A stretch of DNA of 64,000 nucleotides. It comes from Synergistes jonesii. Lineage in GTDB: Bacteria > Synergistota > Synergistia > Synergistales > Synergistaceae. Below the pieces are notes generated by a model. That model was not told the origin of the DNA. It made no database searches and worked only from the letters and a program-made list of their open reading frames with translations. The position numbers were made by a program, and so were the translations under genes. The stretch covers positions 62,001 through 126,000 of the forward strand of contig NZ_JMKI01000021.1 of assembly GCF_000712295.1 (NCBI RefSeq). Direction: 5' to 3'. Positions within the stretch are counted from its first letter, which is position 1; each line of letters opens with the position of its first letter. Of this stretch, positions 5,237 to 57,434 are shown piece after piece.

Positions 5237-5443
5237 GGACTGCGGGCTCCTCCGCCGCGCCATGTTTTGCCTGGGACATTTGCAGCGCGCCTGTATGCCC
5301 GCATTAAATAAGAAATCCGTACCAGGCAGACGAACGGCGTGTTATCATATAGCCGAGGGCGCGCGGGAAATAATTTACTGAAAAAGGCGGCCAAATCGCA
5401 GCGCTGCCCGGCCGGGAGAATAAATATGGCGGAGGCGGATAAT

Positions 5444-7021
5444 ATGCGGAAGATGCCTGCAAGCATTTTCAACGACGTTATAGGGCCGGTGATGCGCGGC
5501 CCTTCGAGCTCGCACACGGCGGCCTCGGCGAGGATAGGCGAGATCGTCCGTCAGTCCGTCGCGAACGAGCCGCTGCGTGCATTCTGCGACTTCGACGTCA
5601 ACGGCTCTATCGCGGCAACGCACGAGGGGCACGGCACCGATATGGGCTTCATATGCGGGCTGCTCGGCAAAAAGCTGACCGAAGAGGGCGTGGACGACTA
5701 CCGACGGCTCGCCGAAAAGGCCGGAGTCGGCGTGGAGTACCGCGTCTTCGACTACGGCGCCTCTCATCCCAACAATTACAGGATAGAGCTGTGGTGGCGC
5801 GGAGGCGAGCATCACAAATGGAACGGCGTATCCTCCGGCGGCGGCATGATAGAAATGCAGGATTTCGACTCCTTCCCCGTCTCGATAGTCGGCGACTTTT
5901 ACGAAGTGCTGATAAAATTTCCCGATGCGGCGGGCGCGGAGCGAATGAAAAAATTCTGCTGCGGGGCCCTACCGGCGCCGGATTTTTCGCGGGTGGAAGA
6001 AAAGGCGGGAGGCGCCCTGCTTTCGCTGAAATTTTCCAAGGAGCCGGACGAAAAAACTTTGAGGGGCGCCGCCGAAAGCTTCGGGCGAACCGATTTCGTA
6101 AAAATCGCGCCGGTGCTGCCGACGCTCTCGCGCTCCGGCTGTTCCGTGCCCTTCGCCACGGCGGAAGAAACGCTCAAGTACAACGAAGGGAAAAGCCTGC
6201 GCATGTGGGAGCTCGCGGCCGAGTACGAAGCGGCGCGCGGCGGCACTTCGAAGGAAGAAGTATTCGAAACGATGAGCGGCATAGTCGAAGTGATGGAGCG
6301 CGCGCTGAAAAACGGAATAGCCGGCACCGAATACGCCGACAGGATACTCGGCCCGCAGGCGCACATGATAGCGGAGGCGGAGAGGCGCGGCGCGCTGCTG
6401 CCGTGCGACCTGCTCAACGCGGTGATCGAGTCGATAACGGCGATAATGGAGACTAAAAGTGCGATGGGCGTAATAGTCGCGGCGCCTACCGCCGGCTCTT
6501 GCGGCTGTCTACCTGGCACTCTGCTGGGTGCGGCGCACGCGCTCGGCAAATCGGCGGACGAGGCGACCAAGGCGATGCTCGCCGCAGGGCTCGTCGGGCT
6601 GTATATCGCCGAAAGCGCGACCTTCGCCGCGGAAATCGCCGGCTGCCAGGTCGAATGCGGAGCCGGCTCCGGCATGGCGGCCGCCGGGCTCGTACAGCTG
6701 ATGGGCGGCAGCGTCGAACAGTGCATGGACGCGGCGTCAATGGCGCTTCAGAACGTAACGGGGTTGGCCTGCGATTTCATCGCCGGGCGCGTCGAGGTCC
6801 CCTGCCTAGGCAAAAACGTCATGGGAGGCGCGAACGCGCTTTCTTGCGCGAACATGGCCCTCGCCGGCTTCGACAGGGTGATACCGCTCGACGAAACGAT
6901 CGCGGCGCTCTACGACGCCGGGCAAAAGCTGCCGTCGGAGCTCCGCTGCACCTTCGGCGGCCTCGGCAAAACGCCGGCCGCCGCAAAGCTGCTTGAAAAG
7001 CTGAAAAATATCAAAAAGTAA
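5444..7021 (+). CDS. sdaA: L-serine ammonia-lyase, iron-sulfur type, fused beta-alpha
   Basis: This 525-residue enzyme deaminates L-serine to pyruvate using a [4Fe-4S] cluster. The beta domain comes first with the GPSSSHTA signature near the N-terminus; the alpha domain in the C-terminal half has the cluster cysteines in CGCLPG, CQVECGAGSG and VPCLGKN. The frame is open from 5339, but I choose ATG 5444 because GGAGG (5431-5435) sits 8 bases upstream; ATG 5426 is a weaker alternative. It is longer than E. coli SdaA (about 454 residues) by an insert between the domains. Single gene; it fits amino-acid fermentation. The 207-base gap from msrAB has no confident promoter. Confidence 0.93.
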   Translation: MRKMPASIFNDVIGPVMRGPSSSHTAASARIGEIVRQSVANEPLRAFCDFDVNGSIAATHEGHGTDMGFICGLLGKKLTEEGVDDYRRLAEKAGVGVEYRVFDYGASHPNNYRIELWWRGGEHHKWNGVSSGGGMIEMQDFDSFPVSIVGDFYEVLIKFPDAAGAERMKKFCCGALPAPDFSRVEEKAGGALLSLKFSKEPDEKTLRGAAESFGRTDFVKIAPVLPTLSRSGCSVPFATAEETLKYNEGKSLRMWELAAEYEAARGGTSKEEVFETMSGIVEVMERALKNGIAGTEYADRILGPQAHMIAEAERRGALLPCDLLNAVIESITAIMETKSAMGVIVAAPTAGSCGCLPGTLLGAAHALGKSADEATKAMLAAGLVGLYIAESATFAAEIAGCQVECGAGSGMAAAGLVQLMGGSVEQCMDAASMALQNVTGLACDFIAGRVEVPCLGKNVMGGANALSCANMALAGFDRVIPLDETIAALYDAGQKLPSELRCTFGGLGKTPAAAKLLEKLKNIKK

Positions 7022-7075: not shown

Positions 7076-8914
7076 CTATCTCAAAGGCCTCTTCCATCCC
7101 GCAACCGCGTCGAGGAAGGCTCTGCCGTAGCGCGCGAGCTTCGCGGCTCCCACGCCGGGAACTTCCAGGAACTCCTCCTCGTCCGCGGGCAGCGTTTCGC
7201 ATATTGCGGCGAGCGTCTTGTCGGTGAAAACGACGTAGGGCGGCACGCCTTCCTCTTTCGCTATAGCGCGGCGGAGCTCGCGCAGCAGTTCGAAGAGATC
7301 GTCGTGCGCCGAAAGGGGGCGTGTAGCGCTCTTTTTTATTTTTCCCGCGCTTTCGGCGCGCTCGTCGAACTTGCGCATGAAGAGACGCCCGGGCGAGCGC
7401 AGAAAGGGCGCCGTCTCTTCGGTGAAAGAGATGACGGGAAAATCCCCGTCGCCCGCGGAAAGGTAATTCGACGCGATGAGAAAATCTATCATTTCGCGCA
7501 CGTCGTGCGCGCTCGCGTCTTTGAGTATCCCCCACGTCGAGATTCTTTCGAAGCCGAGCCGCATTATTTCCGCGCGCCGCGAGCCGCGCAGCACGTCGAC
7601 CAGCATCGAAGCGCCGAACTTTTTCCCTCCTGTGGCCTGCGCCATCCTGTAGACGCAGGAGATTATCTTTTGTGCATCGGTCGTTATCTCGGCCAGCTCG
7701 GCGTCGCCGGTGCAGCTGCCGCACGAGCCGCACTTTTCAGGGACGCCGCCTTCTCCGAAATATTTGAGCATGAACGCGCGCAGACAGCCGCCCGTGTGGC
7801 AGTAGTCCATCATCGCGCGCAGTTTGCGCCGCGCCGCCTCCCTCGTCTCCCCGGGCGCCCGCTCGATGAACCATCGCGCGGTCGCTACATCACGTGCGCC
7901 GTAAAAGAGCGCGCAGTCGGCCGGCAGCCCGTCGCGCCCGGCGCGTCCCGCCTCCTGATAGTAGGCGTCTATATTCTGCGGCATGTTGTAATGGGCGACG
8001 TAGCGCACGTTGGATTTGTCTATCCCCATACCGAAAGCGTTCGTTGCGACCATCACGTCGGCCCGGTCGTAGATGAAGGCCTCCTGATTCCGCGCACGCT
8101 CGTCATCGGAGAGCCCCGCGTGATAGCGCACAGCGCTTATTCCGCGGGCACGCAGCGCTTCGCAGATAGCCTCGACGTTTTTCCTCGTCGAAGCGTAGAC
8201 TATGCCCGATGCTCCTTTGAACTGCTTTATGTATCTCAGCAGCGCGGCGTTTTTGTCGCTCGGATGTTCGACGTGAAAAAATAGATTCGCGCGGTCGAAG
8301 CCCGTCGTAAGCGTGAAGGGCTCTCGCAGCGCGAGCTGCGCGACTATATCGTCGCGCACCTCCGGCGTCGCGGTAGCGGTGAAGGCGGCGACGGTCGGCC
8401 GCTTCGGAAGCGACGCCACGGTCGGCGCTATGCCGAGATAGGATGGGCGGAAGTCGTGCCCCCAGTGCGAGACGCAGTGCGCCTCGTCGACGACGACAAG
8501 GCGCACGTCGACGTCGCGCAGGAAATCGCCGAAGCTTCCGGCGTCGAGGCGTTCCGGCGCGATGTAGAGCAGCTTGATCATTTTTCTGCGCGCGTGCGAA
8601 AAGGCGGAGGAGAGCTCCTCCCGCTCCAGGGAGCTGTTTATCGACGCAGCTCCTATGCCGTTCTGCAAAAGCGCGTCTACCTGATCTTTCATCAACGAAA
8701 TAAGCGGTGAGATAACGACGGTGAGCCCGTCGGACATTACAGCGGGGATCTGATAACAGAGGGACTTTCCCGCGCCGGTCGGCATTATGCAAAGCGCGTC
8801 GCGGCCGCCGCAGAGGGCCTCGATGATCTCTTTTTGTCCCTTTCTGAAAGAACTGTAGCCGAATACTTTTTTTAATACTTTGAGAGCGCCATCAGCGCCC
8901 GTGCTCTCCTTCAT
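7076..8914 (-). CDS. recQ: ATP-dependent DNA helicase RecQ
   Basis: A 612-residue 3'-5' DNA helicase for recombination and fork repair. Walker A is at about 45-51 (TGAGKS), the DEAH box with the aromatic-rich loop DEAHCVSHWGHDF at 143-155, the zinc-binding cysteines in the segment around 365-395 (CHTGGC, CGSCGSC), a winged helix, and a C-terminal HRDC domain (about 530-605, EEEFLEVPGVGAAKLARYG). The length is normal. The ATG at 8914 is preferred to an in-frame GTG at 8932, because that GTG falls inside a strong extended -10 box. There is no Shine-Dalgarno before 8914. Confidence 0.95.
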   Translation of the reverse strand: MKESTGADGALKVLKKVFGYSSFRKGQKEIIEALCGGRDALCIMPTGAGKSLCYQIPAVMSDGLTVVISPLISLMKDQVDALLQNGIGAASINSSLEREELSSAFSHARRKMIKLLYIAPERLDAGSFGDFLRDVDVRLVVVDEAHCVSHWGHDFRPSYLGIAPTVASLPKRPTVAAFTATATPEVRDDIVAQLALREPFTLTTGFDRANLFFHVEHPSDKNAALLRYIKQFKGASGIVYASTRKNVEAICEALRARGISAVRYHAGLSDDERARNQEAFIYDRADVMVATNAFGMGIDKSNVRYVAHYNMPQNIDAYYQEAGRAGRDGLPADCALFYGARDVATARWFIERAPGETREAARRKLRAMMDYCHTGGCLRAFMLKYFGEGGVPEKCGSCGSCTGDAELAEITTDAQKIISCVYRMAQATGGKKFGASMLVDVLRGSRRAEIMRLGFERISTWGILKDASAHDVREMIDFLIASNYLSAGDGDFPVISFTEETAPFLRSPGRLFMRKFDERAESAGKIKKSATRPLSAHDDLFELLRELRRAIAKEEGVPPYVVFTDKTLAAICETLPADEEEFLEVPGVGAAKLARYGRAFLDAVAGWKRPLR

Positions 8915-13830: not shown

Positions 13831-16800
13831 ATGCTTATTCTTCACACCGCCTTCGAGAAGGACTTCATATATCTCTGGGGCGAACATTCCTTCGAATATT
13901 TTGACGGGGCGCCGGCGGCGGCCGCGCCGCCTCTACCGTGGGGCGCGGAAACCACCGAGCTCGCAGCGGCTCTGAAGGGGGTCGGAGTCAAGCGCTCGCG
14001 CAGGAGCGCGGAGCCCGTAGGCGCGCAGTTGCTACTGCCGAGCCGCGAAGGCGTCCCTCTGCCGTCGAGCCCGATGCTCGGCGACGTGCCGTCGAAGGGC
14101 GGCGCGCTTTCGCTGTCGCCCTTCTCCGTCTGCGCGTTGCCGCTGAGCTTCCAAGAATTTCTTCAACTCGCGCGCGTCGTCCGCGAAAGCGGCGAACGCC
14201 TCGCGGCGCCCGGCGTGCTCTTCGCCGACGACGTCAAATTCATCTGCAGCGCGCTCGAATACTCGGCCTACCTCGTCCAGCGCGGGAACTATTTCCCCGA
14301 CATGGAAAAGCGCGGCGGCGGCTTCGTTTCCCAATGGCGGCCGCTGATACTCGCGAGGAGCCAGGATGAATTTTCAGCCTTTGCCGCCGCGATGCCGCCG
14401 CTTCTCTGCGCCTTCGCGGCGGAGGGGAGGGCGCGGCTCGCACCGAAGCGGGACGCAGCGATGCTGCTGCTCAGCTGCTTCACCGATATGATAGTGCGCG
14501 CCTCTCAGTCGCAGGGCAGAGACAGGGGGCGCCTCATCGACTCCGGCAACCCCCACGAGATATGGCTCCGCTCGCTGCTATGGCAGAAGGCGCCGCTCGA
14601 AAAATGGAAGGAGGAGATGTCAGAGTTTTACCCACAGGTCTGCGCCTGGGCGGATTCGCTGAAGGCCATGACCGCGCAGCCGTGGCGCTTCTTCATACGC
14701 CTCGAGGAGCCGCTCGAAGAGGAGGGGGCGTGGACACTGTCCTGGCATTTGCAGTCGACGCGCGACCTTTCGCTGATAATCCCCGCCGAGCGCGTATGGA
14801 GCCCGACGCGGGCCGAGCGCGAGTGGTTCGAACGCACACAGACGAATCCGCGCCTCTATATGCTTCAGATACTCGGCCGTCTCGCGGCCGAGCTGCCGGC
14901 CGTCGCGTCGGGGCTGCATACGCCGTGCCCCTGCGAATGCGCTATGACTCTCGACGAATTGTTCGACTTCCTTCACAACCACCTCGCGCGGATAATGGAC
15001 ATGGGCATACAGGTGCAGTTCCCAAAAACGTGGGGACAGATATCCGACCGCCCGAAGCTCTCTGTGCGCGCGAACGTCCGCGAGGAAGGCGCCTTCCAGG
15101 CCGGCGGCAAGATCGACATGTCCGATATGCTCGACGTCGACTGGAACGTCGCACTCGGCGGCGACCTCCTCACCGAAGAAGAATTCACGATGCTGACTGA
15201 GCTCAAGACGCCGCTCGCGAACCTCCGCGGCCGCTGGGTCGTCATATACCGCGACGAAGTTGAGAAAATAACCGCGGCGCTGAAAAAGATGCCGGAAAAA
15301 ATAGAGCGCAGGGAGGCGCTTCTCTCCTCACTGCGTCAGGAATACATGGACGCGCCACTATCGGAGGTCGCCGGCTCGCAGTGGCTCAGCGACGTCCGCG
15401 CGCTGCTATCGGCCTCCGCCCCCCTTGAGGAATCGCCGGCGCCGGAGGGCTTCGCCGGCAAGCTCCGCCCCTATCAGGCGAAGGGGCTCTTCTGGCTCGA
15501 ACGCCTCACAAAGCTGGGCATGGGCGCCTGCCTCGCCGACGACATGGGGCTCGGCAAGACCGTACAGACGCTGGCCCTTATAAAAGAAATGCGCTCAGGC
15601 GGCGAACTGCGCCCGGTGCTTTTGATATGCCCGACCTCAGTGATGGAAAACTGGCGGCGCGAAGCGGAGAGATTCGTCCCCGGCATGAAGACGATCGTAC
15701 ACCACGGGCTCAAGAGAAACAAGAGCGGCGCCTTCACAGCCGAGAAGCTCGCCGGCGCGCTCGTTATATCGTCCTACTCGCTGCTCTACCGCGACAACGC
15801 GCTCTTTTCAAAAATAGAATGGGCCGGCGCGGTGCTCGACGAGGCGCAGAACATAAAAAATCCCGACACAAGGCAGGCGCGCGCCGCGCGTTCGCTGCGC
15901 GCGGGTTGGCACGTCGCTCTCACCGGTACGCCGGTCGAAAACCACGTCGGCGACATGTGGTCGATAATGGAGTTCCTGATGCCCGGCCTGATGCCGAACC
16001 GCGCGAAATTCTCGCGCGAGATACTGCGCCCGGTGCAGGCCGGAGAGAAGAAGGCGATGGAAAAGGTACGCCGCATGACCGCGCCCTTCATACTCCGCCG
16101 CCTCAAGAGCGACAAAGAGATAATAAGCGACCTGCCGGAAAAGATAGAGAGCCGCGAATTCTGCCCGCTGACGCGCGAGCAGGCGACGCTCTACGGCGCA
16201 GTAACCTCGTCGCTCGAAAAAGAGCTCTCGGGCGCCAGCGGCATAAAGCGCAAAGGCATAGTGCTCGGCGCTATAACGGCGCTGAAACAGATATGCGACC
16301 ATCCGCTGCTCTACCTGAAGGATAAATCCGAGATCGACGGCCGCTCCGGCAAAATCGCGCGCGTCGCTGAGCTCGCCGAGGAGATGATCGCGGCCGGCGA
16401 CCGCGCTCTGATATTCACGCAGTACGCCGAAATGGGGGGGCTGCTGAAAAAATTCATACAGGAGACCTTCGGGCGCGAGGCGCTCTTCCTGCACGGCGGG
16501 GTGCCGCGCGAAAAGCGCGACGAAATGGTGCGCCGCTTCCAGCAGGAAGAAAAGGGGCCCCCCTTCTTCATCCTCTCCCTCAAGGCCGGCGGCACGGGGC
16601 TGAACCTCACACGCGCAAACCACGTGATAATGTTCGACCGCTGGTGGAACCCCGCCGTCGAACAGCAGGCCGTCGACCGAGCATACAGGATAGGGCAGAG
16701 CAGCAGCGTACAGGTACACTACTTCTGCTGCCGCGGCACGCTCGAAGAAAAGATAGAAGAGCTGATAGACGAGAAGAGAGAGCTCGCCGAGATGGTCGTC

Positions 16801-27618: not shown

Positions 27619-29796
27619 CTACGGCCTCCGGCCCCGCCGTCCCCTTCCCGCCAGCGCAAGCGGCGCCAGCAGCGCCAGCGCCGACGCGCAGGTAGCTGCG
27701 GCACAGCCACCGCCCTCCGACGACCGACCGGGCGGCACGGAATCCCGAACGTCCGCGACCGTTATATATGCCTCCGAAAAATATTCGTTAAGATCGCCGA
27801 CGGAGAAAGAGAGCTTCCCCGTCAGATATTCCGCGGGCAGGGCGGAGAATCCGCCGCTATTGTTTCCGCGGAGGATCACGTAGGGGACGCCCAAGAATTC
27901 CAGCTCCGTGGAGAGCGGTACGGCGAACGAGGCCGGGCCGCCCGTATGTTCGACCGTCATCGCAAAGACTCCTTTGAGATCGACGTTCTTGTCGGCGGCG
28001 ACGCCGATTACGCGCTCTTCGCGCAGAGCCTTCATCACTTCTCGTTCCCGCTCTTCGCGCCTTGCCGCTGAAAGGGCGGCAGCAGAGGCCGCAGCTCCTG
28101 CTTCGGCGTCGACCGTCACCTCGCCGGGAAGTTCTATGGCCGCGCCCCTCGCCGTATGCTGCCGCTCGCCGAAGGCTTTGAGACAGACGCTCACAGTTCC
28201 CTTCCCGTCGGCGTCGGCTATGTCATAGAAACTCACACCGTCTTTTGAGAACCAACCCTCGCCGCGCGCCGCCGCGGCCATTTCGGAATATCCGGAAACG
28301 CGGCACTCTACGGGGACGGTATATTTGTAGCCGTCGGCTTCTACCGCCGCCTTCACGACGACGGAAAACTTCGTCCCCGCGGCGACGTCAACCGGAGCTG
28401 CGAGCGTTACGCTGTTATAGCCCGGGACGAGGCCGTCGGCATCCGTCGCCGAGGCAAGGCTGCCGCCGATCGGCGAACCCCCGCAGTCTTTATAAACGCT
28501 TATCTCATATCTGTTGCCCGGCGAAGGGACATAAAAGGCGACCGACGATATCCTGTCGTCTCCCGCCGCCGCAAAGATATTCGCAAAATAAGAGATATTC
28601 CCCTCTTCATTCTCTTCGTGCGGCGAGAACCAGCGGACGCAGCCGAGCGGGTCATACTGGTATACCCGCTCGCCCGAAAGGGCGGCGGAGCTATCGTACG
28701 CGACGCCGTCGTAGAGCGTCCCCTCTTCGTAGGAGACGTAGTAATAGCCTGCGTCTCCCCAGCCGCTTCCCCAGCTGTTGCGGACTATCCAGGCGCCGTT
28801 TTCTCGCGGACGGTTGTCTTTCGCAAATCTCTCCTTCGGGTAATCGTCGTCCCAGCCGACCAAAGCGACGGCGTGGTTGGGTACAAAATCGGCTGCGGCC
28901 CCGCCTATTTCGTCCGCACCATCATATCCCAGCCCCGTGTAATACGATAGGCCGTCTTCAGAAAATACGCTGCGGCCGGCATCTTCGCGCGACTGGTCGT
29001 TGTCGCTGAACTGGTAGACGCCTACGGAGACGGCCCCGTACTCCAGCATCGCCCTTTTGATCATCTCGCGCCGCGCCGCCGAGAGCGGGACCTCCCGTGA
29101 ACCGCCGCTGCCCAGGTAGAACGCGTTGTTGAGCTTATATTTCCTCGGCTTCGGCGCCGGCGTATATACTTCGCCGTGCGAGGCCGGCGTCGGAGCGTCG
29201 AGCTCCGGCAGCGAACCTGTGCCGCGTCCCAGCAGCGCCACGGCGCGCCAGTCGTCGCCGCCCACGAGGTAATAGGGCTTGGCGCTCGGGTTGGAGAAGG
29301 GGACAAAGCCGTCGCCGGCATTGTAGGCGTAATAGGTGATATACCATTCCGAAAGCCTGATATCGGAGGAGGAAGCGAGCCCCAGCCCTATCAGGCGGGA
29401 TTCCGTGGCGGCCATAGCGCTGTAGGTCCAGCAATTGTTGAAGTCGGCCTGATCCCTCACTGCCGGCATGGAGGGACGCAGATCACAGCGGGCCGGCAGC
29501 GCTGCGCGGGCCGGGAGCGGCCCTTCTCGACCGGCGCGCCGGAGCGTGCCGTAGACGGCGCCGTCAAGATGCGACCAATTCAGCGGCGAAGGTACGTAGC
29601 CGAAATTCCGGCCCGCGGCTTTATATGCGGCCTCTCCACCCATCCTGTTTCCATGGCGGGGAGCTTCGGCATCCCTCATATATTCGTCGAAAGCAGCGCT
29701 CACAGGAACGAAGGCCGCCCGTGCCGGCCCCGCCGAGAAAAGCGCCGCACATGCGAGCGAAAACACCAGCCATTTTTTTATATTTATTTTCTTCAT
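27619..29796 (-). CDS. Exported C1-family (papain-like) peptidase with Synergist-CTERM tail
   Basis: The 725-residue precursor has a signal peptide (about 1-27, ending ARA). The papain-like catalytic set is in order: QADFNNCWTYSA with Cys122, NHAVALVGWDDD with His308, and RNSWGSGWGD with Asn340. A lectin-like beta domain follows (about 370-540), then a region of unknown fold. The last about 30 residues, beginning EGGGCAAATC and ending in an Arg-rich GRRGRRP, fit the Synergist-CTERM sorting signal, so the enzyme is probably anchored or processed at the envelope. GGAAAGGAG lies 8 bases before the ATG. A short GGCC/GGCC hairpin and TTTTTT at the stop may terminate it. Confidence 0.9.
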   Translation of the reverse strand: MKKINIKKWLVFSLACAALFSAGPARAAFVPVSAAFDEYMRDAEAPRHGNRMGGEAAYKAAGRNFGYVPSPLNWSHLDGAVYGTLRRAGREGPLPARAALPARCDLRPSMPAVRDQADFNNCWTYSAMAATESRLIGLGLASSSDIRLSEWYITYYAYNAGDGFVPFSNPSAKPYYLVGGDDWRAVALLGRGTGSLPELDAPTPASHGEVYTPAPKPRKYKLNNAFYLGSGGSREVPLSAARREMIKRAMLEYGAVSVGVYQFSDNDQSREDAGRSVFSEDGLSYYTGLGYDGADEIGGAAADFVPNHAVALVGWDDDYPKERFAKDNRPRENGAWIVRNSWGSGWGDAGYYYVSYEEGTLYDGVAYDSSAALSGERVYQYDPLGCVRWFSPHEENEEGNISYFANIFAAAGDDRISSVAFYVPSPGNRYEISVYKDCGGSPIGGSLASATDADGLVPGYNSVTLAAPVDVAAGTKFSVVVKAAVEADGYKYTVPVECRVSGYSEMAAAARGEGWFSKDGVSFYDIADADGKGTVSVCLKAFGERQHTARGAAIELPGEVTVDAEAGAAASAAALSAARREEREREVMKALREERVIGVAADKNVDLKGVFAMTVEHTGGPASFAVPLSTELEFLGVPYVILRGNNSGGFSALPAEYLTGKLSFSVGDLNEYFSEAYITVADVRDSVPPGRSSEGGGCAAATCASALALLAPLALAGRGRRGRRP

Positions 29797-46657: not shown

Positions 46658-47846
46658 CTTTTATTACAAATCCCTTCAGATAATTTGTCTCCGGCGCGGA
46701 GAGCAGCGCCGGATGGTCCGCCGGTTGGCATATCTCGCTCGCGACGCGGCAGTTCGCCTTAACGTCCTTAGCGGCCGAGGCCAGCACGTCGAGCAGCATC
46801 TCGCGCGTGAAAGCGTGGCTGCACGACAGGAAAAGCATGTATCCTCCTTCAGAAAGTCGGCGCAGCCCTTGCAACGCGAGCTCCTTATAGCCGCGCCGCG
46901 CCGAATCGAGCTGCCCCTTTCCGGGCGAGAAAGGCGGCGGATCCATGACGACTATATCGTAGCGCGCCCTCTCGGCGTCTAACTCGCGCAGTACGTCGAA
47001 GGCGTTGCCGCATACGAATTTCGCCCTGCCGTCGTCCAGGCCGTTCAACGCGATATTTTCCTTAGCACGGTCGAGCGCTCCTTGAGACTGGTCTACGGCC
47101 GTCACCGATGCCGCGCCGCCGGCGAGGGCGCGAAGTGTGAAATGCCCCTGATACGAGAAACAGTCGAGTACGCTCGCGCCGCCGTAAAGGGAATCGAACA
47201 GCGCGGGAACGCCGCGCACGTCGAGATACGCGCCAGTCTTCTGTCCGCCCGCTACGTCGACGCGCTCCAAAAAACCGCCTATCCGCACCTTCAGCGGCTC
47301 CTCCGGCATATCGCCGAGAAGCGGCTTTATCTCGCGCGGTATCCCCTCTTTTTCGAGGTACTTTGTGTCGTTGCGCAGTATCACCGCGGATAATTTTTTT
47401 ACCTTGCGGAATATCTTCGCCACCTCTTCGGCGTGGCGGTACCAACCCATTATCGAGAGCTGCAGCACGAGCACGTCGCCGTAAAGGTCGGCCGTTATGC
47501 CGGGCAGCCCGTCCCCCTCGCCGTGCACCCAGCGGAAGGCCTCCTCGCCGGCGCACCACTTTTTTCTGTAATCTAGCGCTCTCTCGACGCGCCTGCGCAG
47601 CAGCTCCATCTGGTCCGGCTCGCGGCTGCCGAAGGAGAGCACGCGGAGGCAGAGCTCGCTATCGCTCCACAGCCCCCAGGCGACGCGCTCCCCGCTTCTT
47701 TCTTCGAGCGGCACTATATCGCCGGGCGCGCACTGCGGCAGTTGCAGCAGATTCCCTTTGAATATCCACGGATGCCCGCGCTTTATGCGCTCCGCGCCGG
47801 CCTCGTTCAGCAGAGCGCGGCGGAGCAGCCGCCTGTCGTTAGCCAT
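46650..47846 (-). CDS. Class I SAM-dependent rRNA methyltransferase (RlmI family)
   Basis: The 398-residue protein has an N-terminal PUA domain (KRGHPWIFKGNLLQLP) and a C-terminal Rossmann methyltransferase with motif I VLDCFSYQGHFTLRALAGGA and the catalytic-type VMDPPPFSPGKGQLD (NPP-like PPP) and SCSHAF block. RlmI makes 5-methylcytosine in 23S rRNA; the exact target here is inferred. It overlaps folE2 by 8 nt and the HAD gene by 8 nt. Confidence 0.88.
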   Translation of the reverse strand: MANDRRLLRRALLNEAGAERIKRGHPWIFKGNLLQLPQCAPGDIVPLEERSGERVAWGLWSDSELCLRVLSFGSREPDQMELLRRRVERALDYRKKWCAGEEAFRWVHGEGDGLPGITADLYGDVLVLQLSIMGWYRHAEEVAKIFRKVKKLSAVILRNDTKYLEKEGIPREIKPLLGDMPEEPLKVRIGGFLERVDVAGGQKTGAYLDVRGVPALFDSLYGGASVLDCFSYQGHFTLRALAGGAASVTAVDQSQGALDRAKENIALNGLDDGRAKFVCGNAFDVLRELDAERARYDIVVMDPPPFSPGKGQLDSARRGYKELALQGLRRLSEGGYMLFLSCSHAFTREMLLDVLASAAKDVKANCRVASEICQPADHPALLSAPETNYLKGFVIKVD

Positions 47847-48618
47847 TCCGCTTGTCGCCGACTATCACGGCGAAGGCGTCGTGGTTGTGTATGCTCTCGT
47901 GGCTCGCGACCGAAACGCGGTACCATAAGACGCGCGGCTCGGCCCGCATCGCGAGGGCGAGGTCGCGCACCGCGTCTTCCACGAATTTCGGGTGCATATA
48001 CGCGCGCTCGGTGACGAATTTTTCATCCTCGCGCTTCAGCAGGCTGTATATCGGCGCGGAGGCGCAGTCGTCGGCCATCTTCACAAACTCTTCGAGCCAT
48101 ACGAAGCCGGAAAGCCGCACCTCCATCACGGCGTGAGCGCGCTGATTGTGCGCGCCGAAGTCGGAAATTTCCTTCGAGCAGGGACAGAGAGTCTGTATCG
48201 GCGCCGTCACCGTCGTAACAAGGTCAAATTCGTCGTCTACTAAAGAGGCGTCGAAGCGCACGTCGCAGCGCACGCGCCCCTTAGCGCCGCTGACCGGCGC
48301 GGATTTCGTTATAAAGTACGGGAAATCGAATAGCGCGTGCGCGTCCCTCGCCGCGAGCCTCGCGCGCAAAGTTTCGAGAAGCCCCTCCATGTTGTGGAAG
48401 GTAACGCGCTTTTCCTGAGAGCTCAGCACCTCGACGAATCTGCTCATATGCGTGCCCCTGTAGTCGCGCGGCAATGAGACTGAGAGGCTCACGTTCGCGA
48501 TCGTCTCCTGAGTCCCGCTGTCGCGGTCCGGCACCGCTATCGGCCACGAAATGTCGCGTACGCCGACGCGGTCTATCTCAAGATTTCTGTCGTCCGTTTC
48601 GTTCTGGACGTCACGCAT
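47839..48618 (-). CDS. folE2: GTP cyclohydrolase FolE2 (type IB)
   Basis: The 259-residue enzyme forms 7,8-dihydroneopterin triphosphate from GTP, the first step to folate or queuosine. The family signature is the Cys in TLCPCSKEIS and the GAHNQRAHA block (about 160-170), plus ESIHNHDAFA near the end. FolE2 uses metals other than zinc, which suits zinc-poor conditions. It overlaps queD by 8 nt, which points to the preQ0/queuosine route. Confidence 0.95.
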   Translation of the reverse strand: MRDVQNETDDRNLEIDRVGVRDISWPIAVPDRDSGTQETIANVSLSVSLPRDYRGTHMSRFVEVLSSQEKRVTFHNMEGLLETLRARLAARDAHALFDFPYFITKSAPVSGAKGRVRCDVRFDASLVDDEFDLVTTVTAPIQTLCPCSKEISDFGAHNQRAHAVMEVRLSGFVWLEEFVKMADDCASAPIYSLLKREDEKFVTERAYMHPKFVEDAVRDLALAMRAEPRVLWYRVSVASHESIHNHDAFAVIVGDKRNG

Positions 48619-48982
48619 CTTTTACATCCTCCCTGCGGCACACCACGAAGGAGCCCTCCGTCTCCCAGAGGCACACCTCGCTTAGGCGGCAGTTCTCACG
48701 CACCAGAGCGCCGTCGAGCGCGCGGAATATCCACATCGAAATATATTCCGCTGTAGGCTGCGGCAGGATGTCGTTTATATAAGAGTGGTCGAGCTTGGAA
48801 AGCACGAGTTCGCCGACAATCTTTTTCAGTTCGGCGAAGTCGCAGATCATGCCCTCGGCGTCGGGCGCGCCCTCGAGCGTGACGCGCAGATGGTACGTAT
48901 GGCCGTGCAATCGCTCACATTTGCCGTGATAATGTATAAGGTTGTGCGCGGCGTCGAATTTAAAATCGCGGCATAGCAGCAT
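48611..48982 (-). CDS. queD: 6-carboxytetrahydropterin synthase QueD (6-PTPS family)
   Basis: The 123-residue enzyme converts dihydroneopterin triphosphate to 6-carboxytetrahydropterin. Zinc His residues are in FKFDAAHNL and LHGHTY, and the catalytic Cys in GKCERLHGH. ATG 48982 is chosen: GGGAGGG ends just before an in-frame ATG at 48988, leaving a normal 6-base spacing only for 48982. It opens the long operon queD-folE2-rlmI-HAD-hlyD-yggS-divIVA-recG. An extended -10 TGATACAAT on the minus strand (near 49062-49070) could be its promoter. Confidence 0.92.
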   Translation of the reverse strand: MLLCRDFKFDAAHNLIHYHGKCERLHGHTYHLRVTLEGAPDAEGMICDFAELKKIVGELVLSKLDHSYINDILPQPTAEYISMWIFRALDGALVRENCRLSEVCLWETEGSFVVCRREDVKDA

Positions 48983-49084
48983 AATCATCCCTCCCGATTT
49001 AGCGCCGTCTTTTGCGGCGGGACGTCGTTCGCAAACGCCGGCACAGACACGATAATAGATGATTGTATCACGCAACCGGCGAAA

Positions 49085-50757: not shown

Positions 50758-50783
50758 AAATAAAAGCGTGGACGCTCTTATTT
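50758..50783. terminator. Bidirectional terminator between galE and the MocA-like gene
   Basis: AAATAAAAGCG (50758-50768) pairs with CGCTCTTATTT (50773-50783) over 11 bp (one wobble on the minus strand) around a 4-base loop, with T-rich ends on both strands. A second copy ATAAGAGCG (50741-50749) can pair with 50773-50781 instead, giving an alternative fold. Confidence 0.7.
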
Positions 50784-51374
50784 CCCTGCGAGGCGCGCTT
50801 TCGACAGCAGCGCTTCGTACTCTTCCGGCGTGTCCATGTCTTTGAAGTGCGCGGCCGGCGCCGGGACGAGCTCGACCTCTTCGGCGAAGCGCTTCAGCAT
50901 GTTTCTTCCGCCGGCGTCGCCGCTCGCGTCGGCGAATCTTTTCTTCCACAGAGCGCGGTAGAACATCGGGTGCCCGAAGACGCCCTCCCGGCACGGTGCG
51001 AGGACGCTCTTGCCGGGCGACAGCGCCGAAAATTTTTCTGCGAGCGCCGCCATATCCTCCGAGCTAACGAGGGGAAGGTCCCCCAGCATTATGCAGAAGT
51101 CCGCGCCCTCCGGCAGCATCGCGAGCCCTATCGCAAGAGAGCTCGACTGCCCGCGCTCCGGGGCCTCGTTAACGCGCGTCTCCACGCCGGGCGACGACGC
51201 TATTGCGGCCGCGACCTCGCGCGAAAGTACCGCGTTTATCTTCGAAAAGCCGGCGCCGCGAAGGTTGTCGATGACGCTCTCGACCACCGTTTTGCCGCCG
51301 AAGGGCAAAAGCAGCTTTTGGCGCCCCATCCGCGTAGAAAGCCCCGCGGCGAGCAGTATCGCCTGCATCTTCAT
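50778..51374 (-). CDS. MocA/MobA-like molybdopterin nucleotidyltransferase
   Basis: The 198-residue enzyme has the NTP-transferase start AILLAAGLSTRMGRQKLL and the Mg-binding MLGDLPLVSSED. MocA adds CMP to molybdopterin for molybdenum hydroxylases. It overlaps yqeC by 4 nt, and that pairing is typical of selenium-dependent molybdenum hydroxylase maturation. CTP versus GTP specificity is inferred from the pairing. Confidence 0.85.
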   Translation of the reverse strand: MKMQAILLAAGLSTRMGRQKLLLPFGGKTVVESVIDNLRGAGFSKINAVLSREVAAAIASSPGVETRVNEAPERGQSSSLAIGLAMLPEGADFCIMLGDLPLVSSEDMAALAEKFSALSPGKSVLAPCREGVFGHPMFYRALWKKRFADASGDAGGRNMLKRFAEEVELVPAPAAHFKDMDTPEEYEALLSKARLAGK

Positions 51375-52153
51375 CTCTCCGTATATCCGTATAATATGTT
51401 TTCCCGCTCAGAGGCGCAGAGCACCGCGTCATAGCTTTCCAGCAGCGCCGGGATGATCCACGCGAGCCGGCCGCGCGCCCCTTCGTCCGCTTCGTCCCAC
51501 TTGTTGAGGATGAGGATTTTTTCCGCCGCGCGCGGCGCGTTTTTCAGCGGCCCGTTTTCTTCGCAGCGCAGGTATTTTAAATACTCGCGCTCCGTTATCG
51601 CAGCGCCCTCTTCGAGGCCGTGAAGGGCGCGGAACGCTTCGGCGCGGAAGACGCTTTCCTCGTCCGCCCTTTTCCCAAGGGCGTCGACGCCGGCGACCGC
51701 GAGCACGAAGCGGCAGTCTTGAGGCACCGGAGGCTCGTGGTCGCCGTAGCACTTCAGCGAGCGCCCGCGCGATCCGTCGCACTCTGCCACAACGAAGTCC
51801 GCCGCTCCGCCCGCAAGAAGCATTTCCAGCTCCTGCGGAGAGTAGCCGTGAAGTTTGTTCTTTTCATCCCGCAGCACCCCAGCCGCGGTGAGCGAAGGGC
51901 GCGGCTTCGCGGCTAAGAACGCGGCGCAGCTCCGTGCGTCGCCGATAAATACGTTTTCGCATTCGTCCGGCGTCGGCGAAAAAATTTTCGTCGTCGCCGT
52001 AAACAGCACGCGGCGCCTCTTCGCAAGCTCGCGCCCGAGGCCGTAAAGCAGCGTCGTCTTGCCTCCGCCGCCCGTTATGGCGGCGACCGCTTCGCCGCCT
52101 CGCTCCACCCTGCGCGCCAAAAATGAAAAAAGTTCCGTCACGGGCGCGGCCAT
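51371..52153 (-). CDS. yqeC: Selenium cofactor biosynthesis protein YqeC
   Basis: The 260-residue protein has a P-loop TGGGGKTTLLYGLG near residue 28 and the VVAECDGSRGRSLKC block typical of YqeC. It is a putative ATPase needed for selenium-dependent molybdenum hydroxylases (xanthine dehydrogenase type). It starts directly after the PPDK-like stop and overlaps the MocA-like gene. No hydroxylase gene is in the window. Confidence 0.88.
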   Translation of the reverse strand: MAAPVTELFSFLARRVERGGEAVAAITGGGGKTTLLYGLGRELAKRRRVLFTATTKIFSPTPDECENVFIGDARSCAAFLAAKPRPSLTAAGVLRDEKNKLHGYSPQELEMLLAGGAADFVVAECDGSRGRSLKCYGDHEPPVPQDCRFVLAVAGVDALGKRADEESVFRAEAFRALHGLEEGAAITEREYLKYLRCEENGPLKNAPRAAEKILILNKWDEADEGARGRLAWIIPALLESYDAVLCASERENILYGYTER

Positions 52154-53908
52154 TTATCGACGCGCGCCGCTCTGCGGCAGATTTTTATCGACGATCACGC
52201 CTCTGTTAGTTTCGCCGTCCATATAGACCGCGAAGCTGCCGCGATAGACGCGCACCGCGTCGTTTTTGCAGGTCTCGCACTCAACGCCTTCGAACCATTC
52301 GGAATTGAAAATGTTCCTATCTTCTCCGGCGAAGACCGGCATGTAAAGCACACCGTCGACCTCGAGGTCGGAGAAGAAGTGCGTGCCGTAGGAGAGCTCC
52401 GGCATGAAGCCGAGGCGCGGTATGCCGAGCTCCACCATCACGCGGCAGTGCGTCAGCTCGCTGTACTGCACAGGGACGCCGAGTTCGGGGTTGCTCGAGC
52501 CGATGCGCCCCGGCGCGACTAATATATACGGTTCGTCGGAGGCTCCGTTGATGTCGCCTATCAGCCTCGCGGTGCCGTAGAAGTCGCGATTCGCGTAGTA
52601 GCGCCCGTAATCGACGTAGATTATTTTCGAAATGCCGGCTATAGAGCCGTGTGTGACCATCCTGTCGGCCTGAAGCAGTATCTGTTTCTCCGCTACGGCG
52701 GGAATGCCGCCTTCGTTCTGGGCGTTCGACCAGAAGGGACGCGACTGTATAAGGCAGAGGGAGTCCTCCGTCGGTTCATAGGCGAACTCCATGTCAGCCG
52801 GCAGCCCCATCTCCGCTTCAAGAAGTTTCAGAGTCTTCTTCATCCTTTTATAAAAGCCGGGATATTTCTGCGGGAATTCGTCGAAGGTGAAGCATATCTT
52901 CGTTCCCGGCTGCAGCGCCGACATGTTTTTCATGACTTGCGAGAAGGCCCCCTCGCCGTCGGCGTAGCCGTATATCTGAGCGTAGGCGCTGAAATCCGGA
53001 TGGTATTTTATCAGCTGGCGCCACTCCTTTTTTATGTCGAGCGTCGTCAGCGCGTCGGGGTTATCCCTGTCTATGACGTGGAAGGATTCCTGCGCTATCG
53101 CGGCGATCTTCTCCGGAGAAAAACCCTCGGGGCGCAGTATCGGATTGGAGAGCGAGACCGTGCGCGCGTATCCGCGCTTCGTGCTCATGGTCCCCATCCC
53201 GAAGACCATGCGCATCAGGCCGTCCTCCTGCCTTATTCGTGTCGTCCAGCGCCGGAAGTTCTGCGAATAGCCGACGCCGGCGATCGTCGGATAGTAATAT
53301 CTGCCTCGCCAGCGTCCAGCCATGCGGATTATTATTATCCCCATGTCGTCCTCTCCGAGCCTGTGCCTCTCCCTGTACTCCTCCGCGGCGGGGAAGAAGG
53401 TGCGCGAATAGACGCGCTTCACCTCCCTTTCGACGGCAGCGGCACGCTCGGCGGCGCCGCCCTTGTCGTTGCAGAGGAAGGTCGTCAGATATTTTCCCGC
53501 GAAAGAATGCTTGACGTCGTCTTCAAGGCGGCTCGAACTCCTTATCGCGACGGGATCGTTCATCTCGGCTAAGAACTCCTCGATGAATTTCCGCGCGTCT
53601 GCGGGCAGGGGGGCCGCAAGAAAAGCCTCTTCGACGCGCCGCGGCTCTTTGCAGGAAAGCAGAGCCCGCAGCCCCGGCACGTTTTCAAGAAAGCGGTGGA
53701 ATATCTCTACGCTCAGATATATCGAGCTCGGAAGCTTCGTCTTCGCGAGCTCCTCGTCGCCGCTGTCGCGCAGCTTCCGCAGCGCGAAGAGCAGAGAGCG
53801 CCCCTTGCCGCCTATCGTGCCTTTGCCGAGTATCAGCGGCGCGAACTCCGGATCGTCTTGAGGCTCCCACTCAAAATAAAGTTTTTTCGCCCGAGGGTCT
53901 TCCATCAT
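52154..53908 (-). CDS. PPDK/PEP-synthase-type ATP-grasp protein, copy A (no phospho-His domain)
   Basis: The 584-residue protein has an N-terminal PEP/pyruvate-dikinase ATP-grasp domain: IGGKGRSLLFALRKL (about 32-46), AIRSSSRLEDDVKHSFAGKY (121-140), MEFAYEPTEDSLCLIQSRPF (about 375-394). The usual swivelling domain with the phospho-accepting His (GGxTSHxA) and the TIM barrel are absent; instead the C-terminal region has VAPGRIGSSNPELGVPV and ELSYGTHFFSDLEVDG, known from large PEP/pyruvate-binding proteins. It overlaps copy B by 4 nt. The substrate is unknown. Confidence 0.8.
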   Translation of the reverse strand: MMEDPRAKKLYFEWEPQDDPEFAPLILGKGTIGGKGRSLLFALRKLRDSGDEELAKTKLPSSIYLSVEIFHRFLENVPGLRALLSCKEPRRVEEAFLAAPLPADARKFIEEFLAEMNDPVAIRSSSRLEDDVKHSFAGKYLTTFLCNDKGGAAERAAAVEREVKRVYSRTFFPAAEEYRERHRLGEDDMGIIIIRMAGRWRGRYYYPTIAGVGYSQNFRRWTTRIRQEDGLMRMVFGMGTMSTKRGYARTVSLSNPILRPEGFSPEKIAAIAQESFHVIDRDNPDALTTLDIKKEWRQLIKYHPDFSAYAQIYGYADGEGAFSQVMKNMSALQPGTKICFTFDEFPQKYPGFYKRMKKTLKLLEAEMGLPADMEFAYEPTEDSLCLIQSRPFWSNAQNEGGIPAVAEKQILLQADRMVTHGSIAGISKIIYVDYGRYYANRDFYGTARLIGDINGASDEPYILVAPGRIGSSNPELGVPVQYSELTHCRVMVELGIPRLGFMPELSYGTHFFSDLEVDGVLYMPVFAGEDRNIFNSEWFEGVECETCKNDAVRVYRGSFAVYMDGETNRGVIVDKNLPQSGARR

Positions 53909-55641
53909 TTTTCCCCCTTTCCTCCTACGCTTCGGTCTATCACGACGCCGACCTCGCTCTCTCCGTCGAGCAGAACGTCGAAGAGTCCTTCATACAGGCG
54001 TACCGCGGGATGCCCCGTCTTCTTCCAAGGATGTCCGTCGAACCACTCCCTGTTGAAGACGTCACCTTTCTCCCCTTCGAAGACAGGCAGATAAAGGGTG
54101 TTGTCGCCGTCCAGGTCGAGGAAGAAGTGGGTCCCGTAGGAGAGCTCCGGCGCCATTCCCTTCTGCGGGATGCCGAGCTCGGCGAGACAGCCCGAATTCG
54201 ATATCTCATTATAGCGCACCGGCACGCCGAGCAGCGGGTTCGAACTGCCCCAACGCCCCGGGCCGACCAGTATGTAACGTTCGTCCTTCATCGTATCGTT
54301 AACGTCGCCGACGGCGCGCGCGACGTCTGAGAAGTCCGGCCGCTTGCCGTAAATGTCGGGGTCGACGTAGACGATGTGGCGCGCCCCTTCGAGCCTTCCA
54401 TTCGCGACCATGCGGCTGCCGCGCAGAATCACTTCGTCGGGCGGTGTCTCGGGAATCTCGACGCGTCCCCTGTCGTCGTAGACGGAAAGCGGGCGCAGCT
54501 GCACCAGCGTTAAGCGGTCGGAATCCGCCTCGTAGGCGAACTCCATGTCGACCGGCAGCTGAAGCTCTTCTTCGAATAGGGAAAGCAGCGCTTTGAGGCG
54601 CGAGAAGAGCTTCGGGCAGCGCGACGGCAGCTCGGAAAAGGTGAACACCGGGCGCGGCATCACGAGGTTGCCGCGGTCCGTGTGTATCCAGTGGAAGGAA
54701 TTTTCGCTGAACCATTCGAGGTACGCCGAAGCCATCTTATGCTTTTTCAGCACCTCTTTGACGTGTTTCGAGATGTGCAGCGAGGAAAATTTCCGCTCGT
54801 CGAGGTCGACGTAGTCGAAGTGCTCCTGCGAGTGGGTGACTATCTCTCGAGGCTTCGTCCCCTCAGGGCGCAGGTTCGGATTTGTAAGGTAAAAGGTCCT
54901 GGCGTAGGCGCGGTCGACGGTGCGCGTGCCGAGGCCGAAGCAGATGCGCGCGACGCCGTCCTCCTTCCTAATGCGCGGCGACGGACGGCGGAAGACCTTC
55001 GAAAACGCCGCGCCGGCCATCTCCGGGTAGAACATGCTGCCGTAGCGGCGCCCCTCTATCGGCTGAATCAGCACCGCCATGCGCTCGCCGCCCCATTTTA
55101 TACCGTGCTTGCGCTTATATTCGCGCGCCGACGCGTTGTAGGTCGACGCGTAGACCATCTTTATCGCGCTTTCGAGCTCCGCGCGGCGCGCCTCCTTCGT
55201 ACCGGCGTTCGACGAAAAGACCGTCGCGTACTTGCCGGCGAAGGAAAGGTTCACGTCATCCTCGAGCGTCGACGAAGAGCGGACGGAGATAGGGACCTCG
55301 ATGAAAGAAAGAATTTTTTCCAGCGGCTCCTCCAACGACGGGGGCAGAGAGGCCTCCGCGCAGATCCTGTACAGCTCCGGCGCGTCGGAATGCTCGCGCA
55401 GACTCTCGAGGCGCTCCCAAAGGCCGTTGAGCTCCATAAATTCGTCGAAGGCCGACGTAGTGACGACGAACGAATATTCCGGCATATGCACGTCTTCGAG
55501 AAGCCCGTTTTTTTCGAGCACGTGATGGGCGAAGGAGAGCCCCTTGGCCTTGCCCCCGATGCGTCCGCCGCCTATCATCCAGCCGCGCTCCAGATAAAAA
55601 GGCTCCGGTTCAAAGCTCCTGTAAAAATCTCCATAATTCAT
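53905..55641 (-). CDS. PPDK/PEP-synthase-type ATP-grasp protein, copy B (no phospho-His domain)
   Basis: The 578-residue paralogue has RIGGKAKGLSFAHHVL (about 28-43), SVRSSSTLEDDVNLSFAGKY (119-138) and MEFAYEADSDRLTLVQLRPL, then VGPGRWGSSNPLLGVPVRYN and ELSYGTHFFLDLDGDN. It has the same architecture as copy A and clearly arose by duplication, but the copies are well diverged, so they may form a heterodimer. It is the first gene of the operon with copy A, yqeC and the MocA-like gene. GGGGGG is the likely SD. Confidence 0.8.
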   Translation of the reverse strand: MNYGDFYRSFEPEPFYLERGWMIGGGRIGGKAKGLSFAHHVLEKNGLLEDVHMPEYSFVVTTSAFDEFMELNGLWERLESLREHSDAPELYRICAEASLPPSLEEPLEKILSFIEVPISVRSSSTLEDDVNLSFAGKYATVFSSNAGTKEARRAELESAIKMVYASTYNASAREYKRKHGIKWGGERMAVLIQPIEGRRYGSMFYPEMAGAAFSKVFRRPSPRIRKEDGVARICFGLGTRTVDRAYARTFYLTNPNLRPEGTKPREIVTHSQEHFDYVDLDERKFSSLHISKHVKEVLKKHKMASAYLEWFSENSFHWIHTDRGNLVMPRPVFTFSELPSRCPKLFSRLKALLSLFEEELQLPVDMEFAYEADSDRLTLVQLRPLSVYDDRGRVEIPETPPDEVILRGSRMVANGRLEGARHIVYVDPDIYGKRPDFSDVARAVGDVNDTMKDERYILVGPGRWGSSNPLLGVPVRYNEISNSGCLAELGIPQKGMAPELSYGTHFFLDLDGDNTLYLPVFEGEKGDVFNREWFDGHPWKKTGHPAVRLYEGLFDVLLDGESEVGVVIDRSVGGKGEK

Positions 55642-55700: not shown

Positions 55701-55706
55701 ATTATA
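55701..55706 (-). promoter_or_regulatory. -10 element of the ATP-grasp pair operon
   Basis: A consensus TATAAT on the minus strand lies about 60 bases before the start of copy B. No clear -35 is seen. The gap 55642-55825 otherwise holds only this and the gpmA terminator. Confidence 0.45.
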
Positions 55707-55825: not shown

Positions 55826-56575
55826 CTACTTTTTCGCCGCACCCTGCTTGGCGACCGCAGCCTGAGCGGCCGCTATCGCTTCAGCGTCGCCGAGGTAGTA
55901 GTGCCTTATCGGCTTCATGTCGTCTCCAAGCTCGTAGACTAGGGGCACGCCAGTCGGTATGTTTATCTCAAGGATATCTTTTTCCGAAACGTCGTCAAGG
56001 TATTTGACGAGCGCACGGATGCTGTTGCCGTGCGCCGCGACGATGACGCGCCGGCCGGCCTTCACGTCGGGGACTATGGCCTGTTCCCAATACGGCACGA
56101 CGCGCGATACCGTGTCGGCGAGACATTCGCCGAGTGGAAGCTCCTCTGCGGAAAGCGACGCGTAGCGGCTCTCGCGTCCGGGCCAGCGCTCGTCGGATTT
56201 TTCTAGGAGAGGCGGGCGCGTCGCGTAGCTGCGGCGCCATATCTTCACCTGCGCGTCCCCGTACTTCGCCGCGGTGTCGGCCTTGTTCAGCCCCTGCAGC
56301 GCGCCGTAGTGGCGCTCGTTGAGGCGCCACGACTTCTCCACGGGGATCCACATCAAATCCGTTTCTTCGAGGACTGCCCAGAGCGTTTTTATCGCGCGGC
56401 GCAGCACCGACGTAAAGGCCTTGTCGAATACGTAGCCTTCCTTCTTCAGCAGCGCTCCGGCGGCCTTCGCCTCCGCGAGCCCCTTCTCGGAAAGCGGCAC
56501 ATCCTGCCAGCCCGTGAAACGGTTCTCTTTATTCCACTCGCTTTCACCGTGTCTTATCAGAACTATCTTATACAT
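55826..56575 (-). CDS. gpmA: 2,3-bisphosphoglycerate-dependent phosphoglycerate mutase
   Basis: The 249-residue glycolytic enzyme has the catalytic His in [25 protein letters not shown], and the second His in [18 protein letters not shown] 56575 has GGAGG 8 bases upstream; the open frame to 56692 is upstream sequence. The C-terminus has a short Ala/Lys-rich tail. A good promoter lies just before it and a terminator after it. Confidence 0.96.
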
Positions 56576-56614
56576 AAGAGCGCCTCCAGCTGATTTTGTA
56601 GGAACTTCGGCTAC

Positions 56615-56643
56615 ATTGTCGGCCGTCGCCGGCGCGTTGTCAA
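56615..56643 (-). promoter_or_regulatory. gpmA promoter
   Basis: On the minus strand TTGACA (56643-56638), 17 bases, GACAAT (56620-56615). The -35 contains the stop codon of the upstream ydcF-like gene, so gpmA can be transcribed independently of it. Confidence 0.6.
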
Positions 56644-57434
56644 GTGAGCGGGAATATGCGCCGGCAGAGCGAGGCGAGCTTGTGGGCCGCAATGCCCGCG
56701 TATTCGCGGAGGCCGGCGCAGGAGAGCGCGAAGCTGCCGCCGTCGGGGAGGAGGGATTGATATCCTCTTATAAGGGGATCCGTAATGCGCCACGGCGCGT
56801 AAGGATATAAGCCGACGTCGGGCAGCGCCTCTTTCGCGATCATCGTTGCACGGGGCAGATGATAGGCGTTCGTCACGACGATCAGGCGCTTTATGCCAAG
56901 CCGCCGGACGAGCTCCGCCGCGTATCTCATATTTTCGGCGGTAGTACGTGAGCGCTCTTCGAGCATTATCGCGCCGCGCCAGCCCATTTCACGCGCGGCC
57001 CGCGCGAGCGCAATCGCCTCGGAGCGGTCGCGGTCGCCGAAGGCGTTGCCGCCGGACATTATCATGACGGTTTTTCCTCCACGCGAAGCCGCGAGGCGGA
57101 CGGCTGCGTAGAGCCGCTCAAGCGTAAGCGGCGAAGGGGCGATTGAAGAGCCCTCGCCGTCGTACGACGAACCGCCGGCGGGCACGAGGAGCGCGGCTTC
57201 GGCTTTATCAGGCGGCAGCGCGCTTTCAGTCATGCCCTCAAGCGTCCCCGTTATCAGCGCGGAGCCCGCCGGCGCGCTCATCAGGTAAAAGAGCGCCGCC
57301 AGCGCGGCGAGCAGCGCGGACAGGGACTTCCCGCGCGGGCGGCGCGACGCCGCGAACGCCGAAAAAAGCAACAGCAGGATGAAAAGCCCGGGAGGCACGG
57401 CGAGGGAGCCGGCCAGCTTGTAAATGAAGAACAT
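56640..57434 (-). CDS. YdcF/ElyC family (DUF218) membrane protein
   Basis: The 264-residue protein has two N-terminal membrane segments (about 12-30 and 38-58) and a DUF218 domain: [51 protein letters not shown] and [15 protein letters not shown]. ElyC-type members affect envelope polymer synthesis; the catalytic activity is not settled. TAAGGAG lies just before the ATG, directly after a strong hairpin. Confidence 0.9.

Follow-up and report, generated by a model that had tools for sequence, protein, structure and literature searches.

A phylum-wide pair of PPDK-like ATP-grasp proteins in Synergistota with a likely diverged swivel domain and one invariant histidine

Two genes lying in tandem on the minus strand of a 64,000-nucleotide stretch of the Synergistes jonesii genome (contig NZ_JMKI01000021.1, positions 62,001 to 126,000, hereafter the window) encode proteins A and B, which are real, phylum-wide, uncharacterised and anciently paired PPDK-like proteins. 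We put at about one in two the reading that they descend from PPDK and form an ancient dikinase pair, in which a swivel-domain histidine is autophosphorylated and the phosphate is passed on in trans. The family is annotated merely as 'PEP/pyruvate-binding' (PEP, phosphoenolpyruvate) and its members have the appearance of broken PPDKs; should a cryptic histidine be the phospho-carrier they would be working kinases, and would join VadK and rifampin phosphotransferase (RPH) as PPDK parts reused away from pyruvate. The two genes and their parts are located in the window as follows.

53905-55641, minus strand: protein A, 578 aa, PPDK-type ATP-grasp domain followed by a predicted, diverged swivel-like C-terminal domain
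54451-55563, minus strand: ATP-grasp (PPDK_N) domain of A, residues 27-397
53929-54450, minus strand: C-terminal domain of A, residues 398-571, swivelling beta/beta/alpha fold predicted
54241-54261, minus strand: PGRxGSS loop of A, residues 461-467
54127-54129, minus strand: His505 of A in SYGTHFF, proposed phospho-acceptor, positioned by secondary-structure order
52154-53908, minus strand: protein B, 584 aa, ancient paralogue of A with the same architecture, overlapping A by 4 nt
52712-53818, minus strand: ATP-grasp (PPDK_N) domain of B, residues 31-399
52181-52711, minus strand: C-terminal domain of B, residues 400-576
52379-52381, minus strand: His510 of B, counterpart of His505 of A

PPDK_N was the sole Pfam domain found in each protein (5.6e-40 for A and 1.3e-29 for B), and the two share 40% identity across 567 alignment columns (E 7e-131), which agrees with a first-pass annotation that had described them as tandem paralogues of PPDK type; all of the motifs which it quoted are present in the two sequences. 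Its statement that neither protein has a TIM barrel also held, as the PEP-utilising barrel gave no Pfam match in A or B even at E<1. The same was true of PEP-utilizers PF00391, and no GGxTSH-type motif was found when both sequences were searched. Each protein carries an unannotated C-terminal domain of about 175 aa. Elsewhere, apart from A and B, the source genome of the window encodes a canonical PPDK_N enzyme, 882 aa long and with a GGMTSH swivel.

A-like matches were obtained in 108 of 188 Synergistota genomes and B-like matches in 46 of 61 relatives, and because A and B are both conserved phylum-wide the A/B set is far beyond chance. The relatives of the window are Synergistaceae, as shown by the named locus L033, whose contig is that of L035. 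A quick maximum-likelihood tree of 76 proteins with Shimodaira-Hasegawa approximate likelihood-ratio (SH-aLRT) support resolved two clades: one (support 100) contained all 27 B rows, the other (support 95) the 27 A rows and a further 16 that had not been labelled beforehand. A distant family supplied two members that fell outside both clades, indicating an old duplication within the phylum. By manual count of their places, A and B are adjacent to each other in 24 of 46 genomes, and in most of the others which have both they occupy separate places. Since each has been kept as its own orthologous line and the two are often adjacent, A and B probably act together. Near one intact A-B pair (locus L036), at a distance of about 6 kb, we noted a detached fragment of the C-terminal end of B (residues ~519-580, 60-65% identity) at 14946-15107 of the locus (G030:C1:61921-62109).

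For phyla beyond Synergistota the analysis covered plasmid and phage collections only. Among the plasmid-collection records, those of Parabacteroides, Prevotella and Phocaeicola contained proteins that align with about 90% of the length of A at 27-30% identity, with one such match in each Bacteroidota record seen. Scans of viral contigs found no relative. Two faecal records named 'Bacteriophage sp.' (MT835667.1, 13-1611, and MT835811.1, 1787-3349) contain near full-length relatives of A at 28-29% identity, which are probably Bacteroidota chromosomal DNA within phage records. PHROGs and PADLOC gave no match, and nothing thus points to a role in phages or in defence.

Conservation of individual residues was scored over 76 homologues comprising A, B and Bacteroidota members. 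In the ATP-grasp domain K31, R121, E127, D128, E367 and R383 (A numbering) were invariant in 76/76 and Q381 was kept in 74/76. When the family was aligned with phosphoenolpyruvate synthase (PPS), K31 fell on the lysine of GGK and R121 on the arginine of VRSSA; the ATP-binding residues reported for RPH are Lys22 and Arg117 (PMC4844700), and Arg106 is the residue reported for ATP binding by VadK (PMC13400623). The proteins have the PPDK_N ATP-grasp domain with the catalytic Lys, Arg, Glu and Gln-x-Arg that would be expected of a distant branch of the PPDK/PPS dikinase superfamily, and from these invariant residues both paralogues should bind and use ATP.

The first-pass annotation had further concluded that both proteins lack any phospho-histidine or swivel domain. 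It was right in that the GGxTSH motif is not recognisable, but the conclusion is probably wrong, as a swivel fold is predicted and one histidine is invariant. The isolated C-terminal domain of A was modelled from four sequences with a predicted local distance difference test (pLDDT) score of 79 and a predicted template modelling (pTM) score of 0.82. VIA-align returned as top match the C-domain of Bacillus pyruvate kinase (Z 6.5, root-mean-square deviation (rmsd) 2.9, 104 residues), followed by the RPH swivel 756-867 (Z 6.4, rmsd 3.5, 105 residues), PPDK swivel domains (374-510; up to Z 6.2, rmsd 3.4, 119 residues) and muramoyltetrapeptide carboxypeptidase, an LD-carboxypeptidase (Z 6.2), these top four lying within one Z unit of each other. 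Lower matches were aconitase X, chaperonin apical domains and RraA, and nearly all of the matches belong to a single fold class, that of swivelling beta/beta/alpha domains. The PPDK and RPH swivel matches have Z of about 6 over 105-122 residues, which is below the tool's Z of 8. A model of full-length A, itself weak (pLDDT 58, only 4 sequences), aligned to residues 12..509 of PPDK 1kbl, that is to the end of the PPDK swivel domain. From these models the C-terminal domain is likely to be a strongly diverged swivelling beta/beta/alpha domain, and the label of orphan proteins without a histidine domain is probably wrong.

Ten residues of the C-terminal domain (P461, R463, G465, S466, G472, P474, E488, G503, H505 and F506) were invariant in 76/76. 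H505 is the sole histidine of the whole protein that is invariant across A, B and the Bacteroidota members, and it lies in a motif SxG[T/S]HFF, which would replace GGxTSHAA. In the phylum's own PPDK, with elements assigned to the sequence after PPDK structures, the order is strand LVKGL, strand AAVGRVVF, a helix, strand AVVLVRP, a short helix, strand QGVLTS, the loop GGMTS, the histidine opening helix HAAVVARGLG, strand PCVSG and a final hairpin DILTLDGSSGEVIL. The model of A runs through strand 404-409, strand 415-426, helix 437-450, strand 456-461, the PGRWGSSNPLLGVPV loop, short helix 477-480, strand 483-489, the loop PELSYG, a helix from T504-H505, strand 516-520 and a final hairpin LFDVLLDGESEVGVVI. 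The elements pair one to one, with H505 at the N-terminus of the catalytic-histidine helix, and on this predicted order H505 would occupy the position of the catalytic histidine of PPDK.

In the mechanism which we favour, ATP would be bound by the ATP-grasp domain of A or B, and H505 of A or H510 of B would attack its beta-phosphate in the way described for RPH (PMC4844700). The products would be AMP and Pi, as they are for PPS and rifampin phosphotransferase. The swivel domain would carry the phosphate away from the ATP-grasp site and hand it in trans to a protein or a small molecule; in cis there is no TIM barrel or other acceptor domain. Alternatively the phospho-form may itself be a signal, as has been argued for mycobacterial VadK (PMC13400623). 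Autophosphorylation, phosphate transfer and an A-B complex are steps that we infer. A broader proposal, on balance doubtful and offered tentatively, is that Synergistota and Bacteroidota share a widespread and uncharacterised PPDK-type branch whose swivel has diverged beyond recognition and bears its phospho-histidine in SxG[T/S]HFF, the Synergistota A-B pair being a trans phosphorelay without the PEP barrel.

Several results weigh against a phosphorylated swivel domain. Comparison of the C-terminal domain with PPS, PPDK and pyruvate-kinase swivels by hhalign, in local and global mode, gave no relation (probability ~1% or less), and the fold matches, at Z of about 6, lie below the Z of 8 under which the tool warns of a mere common arrangement. 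Foldseek alone, run with the isolated domain, did not rank any swivel domain high. Its own matches had E of 0.04 or worse and were mostly thioredoxin-like and chitinase chains with a TM score of ~0.2; these we did not believe because their rmsd was mostly above 10. Residues 491-510 around H505 have a low pLDDT (~44) in the isolated-domain model, so that the exact placement of H505 is uncertain, and its role could be structural.

The invariance of H505 is equalled by that of the PGRxGS...LGxP segment (76/76), which is part of the loop that follows the third main strand in the C-terminal domain and could be a docking site or a second active site. This suits an alternative, in our view unlikely, in which A and B are small-molecule phosphotransferases whose ATP-grasp and C-terminal domains jointly phosphorylate a metabolite in cis, with the PGRxGSSNPxLGVP loop as a second substrate site and H505 as what may be a phospho-intermediate or merely a substrate ligand. 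RPH shows that the superfamily phosphorylates substrates other than pyruvate (PMC4844700), and genes of central carbon or phosphate metabolism are frequent neighbours (glucose-6-phosphate isomerase, phosphoglycerate mutases, polyphosphate kinase/Ppx); however, A and B have no third substrate domain such as that of RPH, and the neighbours vary by lineage and mostly lie outside any A/B operon. Less likely again is that A and B are a regulated kinase coupled to receiver or two-component proteins, the phospho-state of the module being the output. A Bacteroidota homologue (P0001) does join a receiver-like N-terminus (E 2e-6) to the module, reading IICMPNMD at the place expected for the phospho-Asp, PPDKs are among the effector domains enriched with aspartate-less receivers (ALR) in an ALR survey (PMC4395418), and a histidine kinase/response regulator pair is found near B in about ten Synergistota loci; these latter genes, however, belong to an inherited synteny block and are encoded on the opposite strand, and they are missing from the tandem loci nearest to the window.

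The closest known counterparts of the A-B pair include VadK (Rv1127c) of Mycobacterium tuberculosis, which consists of an ATP-grasp and a histidine domain only, autophosphorylates on His422 and regulates metabolism (PMC13400623). Like A and B it is PPDK-derived and has no pyruvate/PEP barrel, the histidine domain being predicted in A and B. The histidine domain of VadK is recognisable as that of PPDK by overlay, whereas the C-terminal domain of A and B has no detectable sequence similarity, its histidine is in SxG[T/S]HFF and the proteins are two co-conserved paralogues. PPS and PPDK share with A and B a PPDK_N domain with invariant catalytic residues leading directly into a swivel-type fold (predicted in A and B), but A and B end at 578 and 584 aa without a TIM barrel or a GGxTSH motif. 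RPH likewise combines PPDK_N with a C-terminal swivel-type domain (predicted in A and B, with Z 6.4 to the RPH swivel); unlike RPH, A and B have no rifampin-binding middle domain or similarity to it, the C-terminal domain coming directly after the ATP-grasp domain, and the NCBIfam model for RPH scored far below its cut-off on them.

A Parabacteroides 'PEP/pyruvate-binding domain-containing protein' (WP_041525632.1) belongs to the same family, with 30% identity over 90% of A and both PGRWGSS and SxGTHFF. It differs in an extra N-terminus of ~430 aa with a receiver-like domain, the 984-aa protein running from this receiver-like region through PPDK_N to the same C-terminal domain as in A. The receiver reads ELIICMPNMD and apparently lacks the phospho-accepting aspartate. 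The Desulfovibrio gene DVU0246, a PPDK-type gene beside a response regulator whose loss leads to nitrate resistance (PMC4001038), is annotated with a normal mobile domain and for that reason was not used as evidence.

The genes on either side of A and B in the window are listed here.

51371-52153, minus strand: yqeC, selenium cofactor biosynthesis family (TIGR03172), a genus-specific neighbour outside the A/B system
50778-51374, minus strand: MocA-like nucleotidyltransferase, accompanying yqeC and not A/B
55701-55706, minus strand: TATAAT box upstream of A, a putative promoter, kept in two congeners with A/B deleted
55826-56692, minus strand: phosphoglycerate mutase-type gene upstream of A, family assigned from a cluster member

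The product of yqeC matched TIGR03172 at 2.6e-40, and the fourth gene encodes a MobA-like NTP transferase nearest to MocA/YgfJ with a score under that model's cut-off. The TATAAT box was not among the sites listed by a consensus promoter scan. From this operon the first-pass annotation had read a link to selenium/molybdenum cofactor maturation, in which A and B make or modify a cofactor precursor together with YqeC and the MocA-like protein. We consider this very improbable. The four genes do overlap or abut in this genome (A/B by 4 nt, B/yqeC by 0, yqeC/mocA-like by 4), as it had described, but of 61 genomes 15 have A/B as well as yqeC where 15.1 are expected from their separate frequencies, with A/B alone in 31 and yqeC alone in 5, so that the presence of one is independent of the other. 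None of the 40 other A/B loci examined (L034-L073, with L033 as a repeat of L035) has a gene related to yqeC or mocA of the window; where another genome has A/B and yqeC on one contig they are at least 60 kb apart, the separation being tens to hundreds of kilobases (153 kb vs 87 kb in G009; 98 kb vs 3054 kb in G016). The neighbourhood survey which the first-pass annotation had proposed thus showed no conserved link between A/B homologues and yqeC, the very pattern it had named as telling against its idea.

Two congeners (G001 and G002) have mocA-yqeC beside gpmA and gyrB in the same order and without A/B. Between gpmA and yqeC the start of A remains in both, as MNYGDFYRSFEPEPFYRERG-stop and MNYGDFYRSFEPGPFYIKRWWMIGSGRI, together with a TATAAT box upstream; these remnants comprise the first 20-28 codons, with differing endpoints (L107, ~8030-8420; L108, ~5395-5810). 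An empty site predating insertion is ruled out by these codons, which mark a deletion. The arrangement was therefore common to the genus, a point in favour of the cofactor link, but A/B were deleted in these congeners while yqeC-mocA was retained. The loss is recent and possibly took place in independent events. The operon of yqeC/mocA with A/B is confined to this genus and is not functional evidence; A/B can disappear while yqeC is kept, and the apparent link to selenium was misleading.

In other genomes the surroundings of A and B are different. In about ten loci B is accompanied by a same-strand gene for a TtcA-like PP-loop protein and by histidine kinase/response regulator, SufC/SufD-like, glucose-6-phosphate isomerase and FliD genes. 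The TtcA-like PP-loop ATPase gene precedes B on the same strand in several families (L043, L045, L048, L050, L053, L054, L059 and L067) and is a possible functional neighbour of B. Separate copies of A adjoin genes for asparaginyl-tRNA synthetase, a CobB-like glutamine amidotransferase, an M20 hydrolase and an acyl-CoA ligase. Among the nearest relatives (L034, L035, L036 and L037) A-B and the polyphosphate kinase gene are divergently oriented, two of these loci having a Ppx/GppA gene further on, and two other families have phosphoglycerate mutase genes nearby. These neighbours hint at central carbon or phosphate metabolism, and the hint is a weak one because most of them are on the opposite strand or in inherited gene order.

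Elsewhere in the window, a folE2-type GTP cyclohydrolase gene lies beside a small 6-pyruvoyl-tetrahydropterin synthase/QueD-like gene, the latter recognised by eye (47839-49075, minus strand), and a 725-aa papain-family protease with a lectin-like domain is encoded at 27619-29796 (minus strand).

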